Of a stretch of DNA of 64,000 nt, positions 40,797 through 59,468 are shown one piece after another. The DNA is from Clostridiaceae bacterium (GTDB lineage: Bacteria > Bacillota > Clostridia > Oscillospirales > Acutalibacteraceae): assembly GCA_016285645.1 (NCBI GenBank), contig JAEERC010000027.1:1-64000 (forward strand), given 5' to 3'. Position numbers and translations under genes: made by a program. How positions within the stretch are numbered: the stretch's first letter is position 1; each line of letters starts with the position of its first letter. The notes beneath the pieces are model-generated. The model did not search any database. It was not told the DNA's origin and was given only the letters and a program-made list of their open reading frames with translations.

Positions 40797-43628
40797 TTAC
40801 ACCTTTTCAAGCAGTTTTTTGAGATATTTGCCCGTGTAGGATTTTTTGCAGGCGGCAACCTCCTCGGGAGTGCCGCAGGCGACGATTTTGCCGCCCCTGT
40901 CGCCCCCGTCGGGACCGAGGTCGATTATGTAATCGGCGCATTTTATAACGTCGAGATTGTGCTCGATTATTATTACGGTGTTGCCCGCGTCCACAAGCTT
41001 CTGCAAAACGCTTATAAGGCACCTTACATCGTCGGTGTGAAGCCCGGTTGTGGGTTCGTCGAGGATATAGACTGTTTTGCCCGTAGCGACTCTCGCGAGC
41101 TCGGTTGCGAGTTTCACCCTCTGCGCCTCGCCGCCCGAAAGGGTTGTGGCGGACTGACCGAGTTTTACATAGCCGAGACCTACATCGTACAGAGTCTGCA
41201 GTTTGTTGCGTATGCGCTGCTGATTCTCAAAGAAGTTGAGCGCCTCCTCAACCGTCATTTCGAGAACATCGTATATATTCTTGCCCTTGTAGCGGATTTC
41301 AAGTGTTTCTCTGTTGTATCTCATTCCCTTGCAGACCTCGCAGGGAACATAGATATCCGCTAAAAAGTGCATCTCAATTTTCACAACGCCGTCGCCCTGG
41401 CACGCCTCACACCTGCCGCCCTTGACATTGAACGAAAAGCGGTTCGCCTTGTAGCCCTTTTTCTTTGAGTCGGCGAGGGAGGCGTAGAGATCGCGTATAT
41501 CGTTGAAAACTCCCGTGTAGGTGGCGGGGTTCGAGCGGGTTGTTCTGCCTATGGGCGACTGGTCGATGCAGATGACCTTGTCGAGATTTTCAATGCCCTC
41601 AAAGCCCGCGTTTTTGCCGGGATATGTCTTTGCGTTGTTGAGGGATGCTGCGAGTTTTTTATAGACAATCTCGTTTACAAGCGAGGATTTTCCGCTGCCC
41701 GAAACACCCGTTACGCACACGAACTCACCCAGCGGGAACGAGACATCTATATTTTTGAGGTTGTTCTCCCCCGCCCCGAAAACAGTGAGCGTTTTACCGC
41801 TGCCGCTCCTTCTTCCGGCGGGCACGGCTATTGATTTTTTGCCGCTTAAATACTGACCGGTAATTGAGTTTTTGCATTTCTTTATGCCTTCGACGCTGCC
41901 CGAATAGACAAGTTCGCCGCCGTGAATGCCCGCTCCGGGGCCGATATCCACTATATAATCCGCCGCGAGCATGGTCTCCTCATCGTGCTCGACAACAATT
42001 ATCGTGTTGCCCATATCGCGCAGATTCTTGAGCGTTGATATGAGTTTTTCGTTGTCCTTCTGGTGAAGACCTATGCTCGGCTCGTCGAGGATATACATAA
42101 CCCCGACGAGGGAGGAGCCGATCTGCGTTGCCAGGCGTATTCTCTGGCTTTCGCCGCCCGAGAGAGTTGCGGACGAGCGCGAGAGAGTTAGATAGTCGAG
42201 ACCGACATTGCTGAGGAACTCGAGGCGCGAGCGGATTTCCCTTAAAATCAGGGTCGCTATATCCTTTTCGCGACGGGTCAGTTCGAGCGCGTCGAGGAAG
42301 GCGATTGCCTCCTTGACGGATTTGTCGGTGAATTCCTTTATGTTGAGACCGCCCACCGTGACGCTCAGCGATTCCTTTTTGAGTCTCGCTCCGTGGCAGT
42401 CCGGGCACGGCTGTTCGGTCATATACTGCTCGATTTCCGTTTTGATATAGTCGCTCGTTGTGGTTCTGTAGCGGCGCTCCATATTGTTGATAACGCCCTC
42501 AAAATCGGTGAGATATGTGCCCGAGCCGTATTCGTTGCGGCGCTCGAGTTTAATCTTTTTGCCGTTAGTGCCGTAAAAAATAACATCCTTCGCCTCGCGG
42601 GAAAGGTCTTTGAACGGAGTGTCGAGCGAGAATTTGTACTCCCTCGCGATTCCCTCGTAATACATCTGCGCTATGGTGCCGCCGTCCGCCGCCGACCAGC
42701 CGGAAAGTTTTATCGCGCCGTCCCTTACGGAGAGCGAGCCGTCGGGAACAACGAGATATTCATCGGGCTTCATGAATATTCCGAGACCCGAGCAGGTTTT
42801 GCACGCGCCGAAGGGGTTGTTGAACGAGAAGGATCTCGGCTCAAGCTCCTCAATGCTCACACCGTGCTCCGGGCAGGCGTAGTTGAGCGAATAAAGCTGC
42901 TCCTCACCGTCAATCACATCCACGAGAAGCACGCCGTCGCTTAAATTTGTGGCTGTTTCAACCGAATCGGAAAGGCGGGAGCGGATGCCGTCCTTTATTA
43001 TAAGGCGGTCAACCACAACCTCAATATTGTGCTTTTTGTTTTTGTCGAGTTTTATGGTTTCCGATAAATCGTAGATATTGCCGTCAATGCGCACTCTGGC
43101 GTAGCCCGACTTGCGCACGCTTTCAATCTCCCTTACGAACTCGCCCTTTTTGCCTCTCGCTATAGGCGCCATAAGCTGAATCTTTGTGCCTTCGGGAAGT
43201 TTCAGAATGGCGTCGGTCACATCGTCAACGGTCTGCCTCGCAATCTCCCTGCCGCAGACCGGGCAGTGCGGAATGCCTATGCGCGCGTAGAGAAGGCGCA
43301 GGTAATCGTAAATCTCCGTAACCGTGCCCACTGTTGAGCGGGGGTTGCGGGATGTGGTTTTCTGATCTATTGAAATGGCGGGCGAGAGCCCTTCGATATA
43401 ATCGACATTCGGCTTTTCCATCTGCCCCAGGAACTGTCTCGCGTAGGAGGAGAGCGATTCGACATATCTCCTCTGCCCCTCGGCGTAAATCGTGTCAAAG
43501 GCAAGGGAGGACTTACCGGAACCCGAAAGCCCGGTAAACACCGTAAGAGCATCTCTCGGGATGCTCACATCCACATTTTTGAGGTTGTGCACCTTCGCGC
43601 CTTTTACAAAAAGGTTTTTCTGCGCCAT
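40797..43628 (-). CDS. uvrA: Excinuclease ABC subunit A
   Basis: A 943-residue damage-recognition ATPase of nucleotide excision repair, of normal length. Two ABC modules are present: Walker [13 protein letters not shown] near the N-terminus and [12 protein letters not shown] in the second half, with signature [12 protein letters not shown] and [12 protein letters not shown]. Zinc modules appear as [14 protein letters not shown] and CEACQGDGV. UvrA dimers load UvrB at lesions. It starts 1 nt after the uvrB stop codon, on the same transcript as radC and uvrB. Confidence 0.98.
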
Positions 43629-57674: not shown

Positions 57675-57829
57675 GGGCGACAGATTGTCGCCCCTACGGT
57701 GGGAAACTGATTTGATAAAAAATATGCGATATGTTTTTGCCCAACGGTGAGATTTTTTCGCGGAACGCCGAACGGCGTTCCCTACGGCGGAAACCGGATT
57801 TGCGTTTATGCTGGCGACAGATTGTCGCC
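57675..57829. repeat. Array of variable-core palindromes followed by CTACGG
   Basis: GGGCGACA-GAT-TGTCGCCC (57675-57693), GGAACGCCG-AA-CGGCGTTCC (57762-57781) and GGCGACA-GAT-TGTCGCC (57813-57829), each followed by C(C)TACGG and a related tail (GGAAACCGGATTTGCGT; GATAACCTGATTTGCGT). A degenerate fourth unit follows. Otherwise 57534-57990 shows no gene. Confidence 0.75.
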
Positions 57830-57991
57830 CCTACGGCGATAACCTGATTTGCGTAAAATCGGGCGGCAGATAATTGTGCATAAGGCATCAGTCCCTTTTT
57901 GCTCAGCTTGAAATCTGGGTTTATTCCTCAAAGTCATTCATATTTCTTCCGATTTATATAAATTTTCAACTTTTTTGCAAAAAACATATTT

Positions 57992-58026
57992 AACCTATTG
58001 ACATAGTAGGTTTTATGTGTTATCAT
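57992..58026 (+). promoter_or_regulatory. Promoter with overlapping dyad operator for the leader peptide/metY unit
   Basis: TTGACA (57998-58003), 17 nt, TATCAT (58021-58026). The -35 box is inside the palindrome CTAT-TGAC-ATAG (57995-58006), itself within AACCTA...TAGGTT (57992-58012). A repressor binding there would block RNA polymerase; an Rrf2-type (CymR-like) sulfur regulator is a guess. Confidence 0.7.
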
Positions 58027-58056
58027 ACGCTCAACACAGAAAGGCAAGGTTAATTT

Positions 58057-58125
58057 ATGAAACTTTTATTTGAGTGTCTTTTAAGGCAGAATTTCCGTTT
58101 CGGGCGAATGCGCTGTTGCTTCTGA
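58057..58125 (+). CDS. Putative 22-residue Cys-Cys leader peptide upstream of metY
   Basis: A short ORF too small for normal gene calls. It has a ribosome site (AAGGCAAGG, 58041-58049) 7 nt before its ATG and lies about 25 nt after the likely transcription start. The peptide begins MKLLFECLLRQ and ends RFGRMRCCF, with two adjacent cysteines just before the last residue. Its position before a sulfur amino acid gene suggests a ribosome-stalling attenuator that reads Cys-tRNA supply, as known for Cys-rich leader ORFs in other bacteria. No clear terminator hairpin separates it from metY (59-nt gap), so the mechanism would be something else, such as coupling or mRNA stability. Confidence 0.55.
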   Translation: MKLLFECLLRQNFRFGRMRCCF

Positions 58126-58184
58126 ATCGATTTTTAAAATTATTCTCAACAACAATACATTCAATATGAAAGGAAATTAAAATT

Positions 58185-59468
58185 ATGTCAAACTATAAAT
58201 TCGAAACATTACAGCTTCACGTAGGTCAGGAACAGCCCGACCCCGCAACGGATTCCCGCGCGGTACCGATTTATCAGACCACTTCCTATGTTTTCAAAAA
58301 CTCCGCTCACGCAGCAGCCCGTTTCGGGCTTGCGGACGCCGGCAATATTTACGGCAGACTCACAAATTCCACGCAGGATGTTTTTGAAAAGCGAGTTGCC
58401 GCTCTTGAGGGCGGTGTCGCGGCTCTTGCCACCGCTTCTGGCGCGGCGGCAATAACATACACAATTCAGGCACTCGCGCAGGCGGGCGACCACATTGTTT
58501 CGCAGAAGACCATCTACGGTGGCTCCTACAATCTTCTTTCGCACACCCTCCCCCTCTACGGAATTGAGACCACCTTTGTTGACGCGCACAATCTTGACGA
58601 GATTCGCGGCGCGATAAAAGAAAACACAAAGGCGATTTATCTTGAAACGCTCGGCAACCCCAACAGCGACATTCCCGACATTGAGGAGATTGCGAAAATC
58701 GCGCACGAGCACGGACTGCCGCTTGTAATTGACAACACCTTCGGCACGCCCTACCTTATAAGACCGATTGAATACGGCGCGGATATTGTTGTTCACTCAG
58801 CCACAAAGTTCCTCGGCGGTCACGGCACTACTCTCGGCGGCGTGATAATCGACTCCGGCAAATTCGACTGGAAGGCGAGCGGAAAATACGCCCCCATAGC
58901 GGAAGCGAACCCCAGTTACCACGGCATTTCGTTTGCCGACGCGGTGGGACCCGCGGCGTTCGTCACCTACATCCGCGCGATTTTACTGCGCGATACCGGC
59001 GCGGCGATTTCGCCCTTCAACGCGTTCCTGCTGCTTCAGGGCGTTGAAACCCTTTCGCTGAGACTTGACAGACACATTGAGAACACAAAAAAGGTTGTTG
59101 AATTCCTTAACAATCATCCGCTTGTGGAAAGAGTAAACCACCCCTCTCTGCCCGGTCATCCCGACCACGCGCTCTATGAAAAATACTTCCCGCACGGAGG
59201 CGCGAGCATATTCACATTTGAGATAAAGGGCGGTCAGGAAGAGGCACACAAATTCATTGACAACCTTGAGATTTTCTCGCTTCTCGCGAATGTTGCGGAT
59301 GTGAAGAGTCTGGTAATTCACCCTGCCACCACAACCCATTCGCAGCTGTCGGATGAGGAACTCGCGGCAAGCAACATCTACCGCAACACAATCCGCCTTT
59401 CAATCGGCACGGAGCATATTGACGACATCATAGCCGACCTGCAGAAGGGCTTTGACGCAATCAAATAA
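58185..59468 (+). CDS. metY: O-acetylhomoserine sulfhydrylase (aminocarboxypropyltransferase)
   Basis: A 427-residue PLP enzyme of the Cys/Met metabolism family that joins sulfide (or methanethiol) to O-acetylhomoserine, forming homocysteine. Family blocks: FETLQLHVGQEQPDPATDSRAVPIYQTTSYVF at the start (in part), GNIYGRLTNSTQDVFEKR, ASGAAAITY, PLVIDNTFGTPYLIRPIEYGADIV and the PLP Lys in VHSATKFLGGHGTTLGG, then the C-terminal VIHPATTTHSQLSDEE. This longer form (about 430 residues) separates it from cystathionine gamma-synthase. AAAGGAAAT precedes the ATG. It is controlled by the upstream dyad promoter and perhaps the leader peptide. Confidence 0.95.
   Translation: MSNYKFETLQLHVGQEQPDPATDSRAVPIYQTTSYVFKNSAHAAARFGLADAGNIYGRLTNSTQDVFEKRVAALEGGVAALATASGAAAITYTIQALAQAGDHIVSQKTIYGGSYNLLSHTLPLYGIETTFVDAHNLDEIRGAIKENTKAIYLETLGNPNSDIPDIEEIAKIAHEHGLPLVIDNTFGTPYLIRPIEYGADIVVHSATKFLGGHGTTLGGVIIDSGKFDWKASGKYAPIAEANPSYHGISFADAVGPAAFVTYIRAILLRDTGAAISPFNAFLLLQGVETLSLRLDRHIENTKKVVEFLNNHPLVERVNHPSLPGHPDHALYEKYFPHGGASIFTFEIKGGQEEAHKFIDNLEIFSLLANVADVKSLVIHPATTTHSQLSDEELAASNIYRNTIRLSIGTEHIDDIIADLQKGFDAIK

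Follow-up and report, generated by a model that had tools for sequence, protein, structure and literature searches.

The window analysed here comprises 64,000 nucleotides of genomic DNA from a Clostridiaceae bacterium. On its forward strand it carries metY (58185-59468), which codes for an O-acetylhomoserine sulfhydrylase and is the gene presumably controlled by the elements described below; the product matched TIGR01326 at 632 bits (cut-off 495). Upstream, a -35 box (TTGACA, 57998-58003) and a -10 box (TATCAT, 58021-58026) are spaced by 17 nucleotides. The -35 box is overlapped by an operator-like dyad, AACCTA-N9-TAGGTT (57992-58012), imperfect in its middle. A ribosome site, AAGG (58046-58049), and an ATG at 58057 then open a leader ORF of 22 codons on the same strand (MKLLFECLLRQNFRFGRMRCCF, 58057-58125). 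Promoter and ORF were thus found as had been proposed in the original prediction. Within the ORF the codons for N-F-R-F (AATTTCCGTTTC, 58090-58101) constitute a putative anti-SD, their complement being the ribosome site of metY, GAAAGGAAATT (58168-58178). They are followed by the dicodon CGA-AUG (Arg-Met, 58105-58110) and by CGC-UGU-UGC, i.e. Arg and two consecutive Cys codons (58111-58119). The ORF ends 59 nucleotides before metY, and no intrinsic terminator was detected in between (58126-58184). Rfam matches in the window were restricted to two tRNAs; the predicted absence of a SAM riboswitch held, and no other Rfam cis-element was present. At 57676-57860 and elsewhere in the genome (L001, 2150-2650) we noted a repeat that is dispersed between genes and has ggcgacagattgtcgcccctacgg as one of its cores; it has the appearance of a repetitive palindromic element of its genome. 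Peptide matches resembling RCCF at two other sites of the genome (L001, L002) were discarded as chance hits, one being located near a terminator, the other antisense within a gene.

The upstream regions of metY orthologs in the genus were of four types. One had leaders in which LLRxNFRFGRM is followed by a variable tail (L005, L007, L019, L020, L022). A second, type A, had terminator-bearing M[CW][CW]RML.. leaders which mostly end in RC (L006, L008, L009, L011, L012, L015-L018). Other short leaders (KTRMRCF in L013, FRMCCK in L021) formed the third type, and in the fourth no leader was present upstream of metY (L010, L014). In L010, L221, L226, L228 and L230 metY lies directly 3' of a coding gene without a leader; by eye, this gene resembles the C-terminus of NifU/IscU. 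A family-wide pattern search yielded 49 matches, its reversed control 4. When 84,980 species genomes were scanned, at least 119 loci were identified, nearly all in Clostridia. Both search patterns fix NFRFG and partly CGA by construction; the results on CGA-AUG, codon bias and cysK reported below are independent of them. Among the matches listed from the large scan most preceded metY, others MetQ, MetN and sulfonate- or cystine-type permeases. Judged by its conservation the leader ORF is genuine and translated in frame, and by sequence it is a member of a large Clostridia family which is found upstream of metY, metQ, metN and other sulfur-type transport genes. Neither an NCBIfam family for the leader peptides nor an Rfam match to a T-box or SAM riboswitch over the relatives' leaders was obtained. 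MetQ, MetN and sulfonate- or cystine-type transporter genes with a similar leader peptide were seen at L083, L085, L146, L152, L166 and L073.

Which codons are conserved was evident from an unbiased set of metY orthologs, taken from 170 family genomes plus the genus. Of 93 non-redundant upstream regions, 73 had CGAATG at a distance of 40-230 nucleotides from the start. Among the 8-mers of these regions CGAATGTG was the most frequent (49 loci); the -35 consensus was found at 25 loci. When the Arg codon was left free in an order-wide search, 32/32 matches used CGA and the reversed-pattern control had no match. Similarly, in short SD-led ORFs upstream of metY with a free Arg codon, Arg before Met was CGA in 54/55 cases and Arg before Cys in 20/31. 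In the tails of FRFGRM leaders the Arg codon was CGA in 34/39 instances before Cys versus 4/64 before other residues (Fisher p 1.6e-17). CGA-AUG was usually followed by UGY (Cys) or UGA. Behind CGAATG, 31% of the in-frame codons were Cys codons; the two alternative frames had 2.5% and 0.7%. Judged by how far away the first +1 and +2 stops lie, CGA-AUG showed no sign of use for frameshifting. The original prediction had proposed attenuation by Cys-tRNA shortage at the Cys pair, to be checked by an alignment of relatives. A translated leader with control by sulfur amino acid codons was upheld by this check: relatives varied synonymously in their leader codons (FRFGRM leaders, one clade), Cys enrichment was frame-specific and the family is conserved in Clostridia. 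The Cys pair itself was not conserved: 35 of 121 FRFGRM leaders end directly after Met, as do the congeneric L020 and L022 leaders. Because of these leaders, a shortage of Cys-tRNA alone cannot be the common signal. By sequence, the conserved core is Arg-Met encoded as CGA-AUG, invariant in the leader family, and Cys codons are a frequent, variable second sensor element. The leader upstream of metY in L324 is rich in Met and Cys codons (RMSSFESMMREMCTMCFAMF...) and resembles a classical multi-codon attenuator.

If the codons serve as sensors, the leader of a cysteine synthase gene is predicted to drop Met. In the own genome, the cysK leader (L356, C6 around 41899-42091) reads MLNHKTVFRCRC, encoded as CGA-UGU-CGA-UGU-UGA; it contains only Cys sensors, each Cys codon being preceded by CGA. 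Across the family, Arg-Cys pairs in cysK leaders used CGA in 11 of 12 cases and CGA-Met was not enriched. Such a leader is present before only a minority of cysK genes, and no Rfam elements such as T-boxes were found upstream of leaderless cysK genes in 20 loci. The control codons thus match the pathway product, both Met and Cys in the case of metY and Cys in that of cysK.

Is Cys-tRNA nevertheless the only signal, with the Cys codons before the stop as sensor and CGA and Met being incidental? The frame-specific occurrence of Cys, the purely Cys-sensing cysK leader and a mycobacterial precedent, as cited in PMC9094748, are in line with such attenuation. Yet CGA-AUG is retained in those FRFGRM leaders and in L020 and L022 where Cys is missing after Met, and the use of CGA before Cys by far exceeds codon usage. 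In 41 ORFs of the window CGA accounts for 8/728 Arg codons (1.1%) and is the rarest one. UGU, the favoured Cys codon after CGA, accounts for 37/346 Cys codons in window genes (TGT 37, TGC 309). We consider it unlikely that Cys is the sole signal.

Within one clade, FxxLLRxNFRFGRM is nearly fixed in spite of synonymous variation, and the next codon is mostly UGN. Counting both Met, the distance between the start Met and the end of the FRFGRM motif is exactly 18 codons in 106 of 121 leaders. Sensing of codons alone does not explain this strong conservation of FRFG. TnaC and SpeFL are arrest peptides which respond to a small molecule. By analogy, FRFGRM might stall the ribosome from within the exit tunnel in response to Met, SAM or Cys. 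However, FRFGRM is absent from other clades which share CGA-AUG, and other genera place unrelated peptides such as KSRTE, SVLLSLN, FLHE, VTSR or KEYG before CGA-AUG(-UGY) upstream of metY. An arrest peptide has no need for one fixed Arg codon, yet all free-codon matches carried CGA, and the fixity of NFRFG is partly built into the search patterns. Peptide arrest as the mode of sensing therefore is rather doubtful.

How might a stalled leader ribosome act on metY? In ErmC-type translational attenuators it frees a sequestered ribosome site. The minimum free energy fold predicted for the window has the N-F-R-F codons base-paired to the ribosome site of metY. In 89 relatives, pairing between leader and ribosome site amounted to -9.55 kcal/mol for own partners versus -8.33 kcal/mol for swapped partners (sd 0.17; 0/1000), the swapped controls leaving shared ancestry in. 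A modelled ribosome positioned at CGA-AUG lowered the opening cost of the metY SD most (mean 2.44 kcal/mol, 128 loci). In the model of the window itself one ribosome at CGA-AUG did not free the site (5.4-5.8 versus 5.8 kcal/mol) because an upstream U-rich segment took over pairing; with a wider ribosome footprint the cost was 4.55 kcal/mol. As a whole, the window leader folded no better than shuffled sequences (z -0.15). A convincing intrinsic terminator was present in only about 5 of 89 FRFGRM loci. Sequestration of the metY ribosome site is thus a likelier output than a terminator, with the support being an average across relatives. In the type A leaders, which belong to sister species, placing a ribosome at CGA-AUG shifted the modelled fold towards the terminator, i.e. 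the sign was opposite. In the modelled cysK leader the SD was open in all states; therefore, another output step is needed there. For these two reasons the output evidently differs between leaders. In the sister-species MCWRML...RC leaders we also noted a GC-rich long-range helix, CTCCCGGGC:GCCCGGGAG, which competes with the terminator and has no Rfam match.

The draft genome contains tRNA-Arg genes with the anticodons ACG, CCG, TCT and CCT as detected by ARAGORN; a TCG anticodon, i.e. tRNA-Arg(UCG), was not found by this program. Therefore, CGA should be decoded only by tRNA-Arg(ICG), via inosine wobble. In the his leader of Salmonella CGA slows ribosomes (PMC4046918); in B. subtilis four consecutive CGA codons did not impede translation (PMC10454642). 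Extending a report on an unmodified A34 in the P site, as cited in PMC10454642, we infer that decoding of the next codon may be slowed by an I-A pair occupying the P site.

The same tRNA offers another possibility: CGA itself might be the sulfur sensor, beyond charged Met-tRNA and Cys-tRNA, via s2C32 thiolation of tRNA-Arg(ICG), a modification dependent on sulfur from cysteine. In E. coli, tRNA-Arg1(ICG) carrying s2C32 cannot bind CGA (PMC5372741), C32 is present in the host tRNA-Arg(ACG), and the own genome as well as 156 of 170 family genomes contain a TtcA-like gene, matches which do not reach the curated cut-off set for the E. coli model. Thiolation explains neither the tie of CGA to Met and Cys codons nor its rarity before other residues, and the sign would be wrong for an output by exposure of the ribosome site upon stalling. 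Because a TtcA-like gene is missing in three draft genomes with CGA leaders (G087, G171 and G204, leaders L314, L297 and L216), we rank thiolation low and regard it as improbable. In the own genome the TtcA-like tRNA thiolase gene (L430, C2:39906-40610) precedes a metY paralog by about 1.3 kb; such genes are nearly universal in the family, whereas at an identical E-value only 2 of 14 control genomes had one.

From the palindrome at the -35 box a second layer of repression had been postulated. The dyad proved to be conserved: ACCTA-N-TAGGT with up to one mismatch was present in 30 of 96 metY upstream regions versus 3.4 in shuffled sequences (about 9-fold) and in 15 of 68 cysK upstream regions versus 2.4, with a spacer of mostly 9 nucleotides. 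Within the own genome the count of the relaxed motif was not above control; the window dyad is its sole perfect match. A weaker operator-like dyad lies upstream of the own-genome cysK leader. The genome encodes two strong Rrf2 proteins, and an Rrf2 gene adjoins cysK. Going by sequence conservation, function and gene neighbourhood, the dyad probably is an operator for a regulator of the Rrf2/CymR type and adds a second control layer. That a repressor at the dyad acts alone and the leader ORF has no regulatory role is highly improbable, for all the conservation of the dyad before metY and cysK and an operator without leader in L014, since CGAATGTG is commoner than the -35 consensus upstream of metY and the enrichment of Cys is frame-specific.

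Sequence comparisons thus bear out the leader family and its frame, the CGA-Met and CGA-Cys bias, the match between sensors and product, the conservation of the operator and, on average, the anti-SD effect. With moderate confidence we favour a mechanism in which the 22-codon ORF signals to metY how well the cell is supplied with methionine and cysteine, CGA sensitises the ribosome to stalling, the anti-SD is the output and a repressor acts separately. The ribosome translating the leader would encounter CGA-AUG and then the Cys codons. With CGA in the P site, read by an inosine-adenosine wobble pair, entry of Met-tRNA or Cys-tRNA would be slowed such that already a modest shortage of Met or Cys stalls the ribosome. 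When both amino acids are plentiful, the ribosome would terminate a few codons further on and leave. The leader segment AAUUUCCGUUUC could then close the metY ribosome site GAAAGGAAAUU by base pairing with it. A stalled ribosome would cover AAUUUCCGUUUC and metY would be freed. Stalling, the direction of control, the P-site role of CGA and the output in the window leader are what we infer here, and the same applies to the identity of the regulator; the repressor, probably of the Rrf2/CymR type, would act at the -35 dyad as a layer of its own.

The closest counterparts come from mycobacteria: polycysteine short ORFs which respond to cysteine (Canestrari et al., 2020, as cited in PMC9094748). 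As far as described there, they also are short ORFs with Cys codons near the stop, located before sulfur genes and without an obvious intrinsic terminator. They are leaderless with runs of Cys codons, whereas the leaders reported here are SD-led, carry an invariant CGA-AUG with Cys in second place, use CGA before Cys and belong to a different phylum. A Cys run as the sole sensor does not apply here as 35/121 tails are empty after Met. As in the trpL and hisL attenuators the control codons are those for the end product of the downstream gene. Unlike those, the window lacks a terminator/antiterminator, the control codons are single and preceded by CGA instead of occurring in runs, and two amino acids would be sensed. 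In the Salmonella his leader CGA slows the ribosome and relieves attenuation, a likeness to the leader described here; there, CGA was introduced by artificial substitutions, here it is naturally fixed beside the control codon (PMC4046918). ErmC-type attenuators have been named as atypical (PMC2965389). As in that type, the model has a stalled leader-ORF ribosome that would free a sequestered ribosome site, but the signal would be the supply of Met and Cys, not an antibiotic, and the sequestering segment is located inside the N-F-R-F codons. Cys leader peptides have been predicted in Actinobacteria (PMC1262725), and for Firmicutes leader peptides of hisS have been noted (PMC2965389). FRFGRM was not found in open PMC full text, nor was a report of the leader family or the CGA rule in the open literature, subscription papers being mostly outside this search. 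Apparently, the leader family in gut Clostridia is undescribed, and its novelty is provisional. It adds a widespread family of sulfur amino acid leaders to a phylum with few reported leader peptides. Further, it presents a codon-pair rule that is natural and under strong selection: the sensed codon is immediately preceded by the rarest Arg codon. Should CGA indeed sensitise the next codon, the effect of P-site wobble on A-site decoding would be testable on a natural element.
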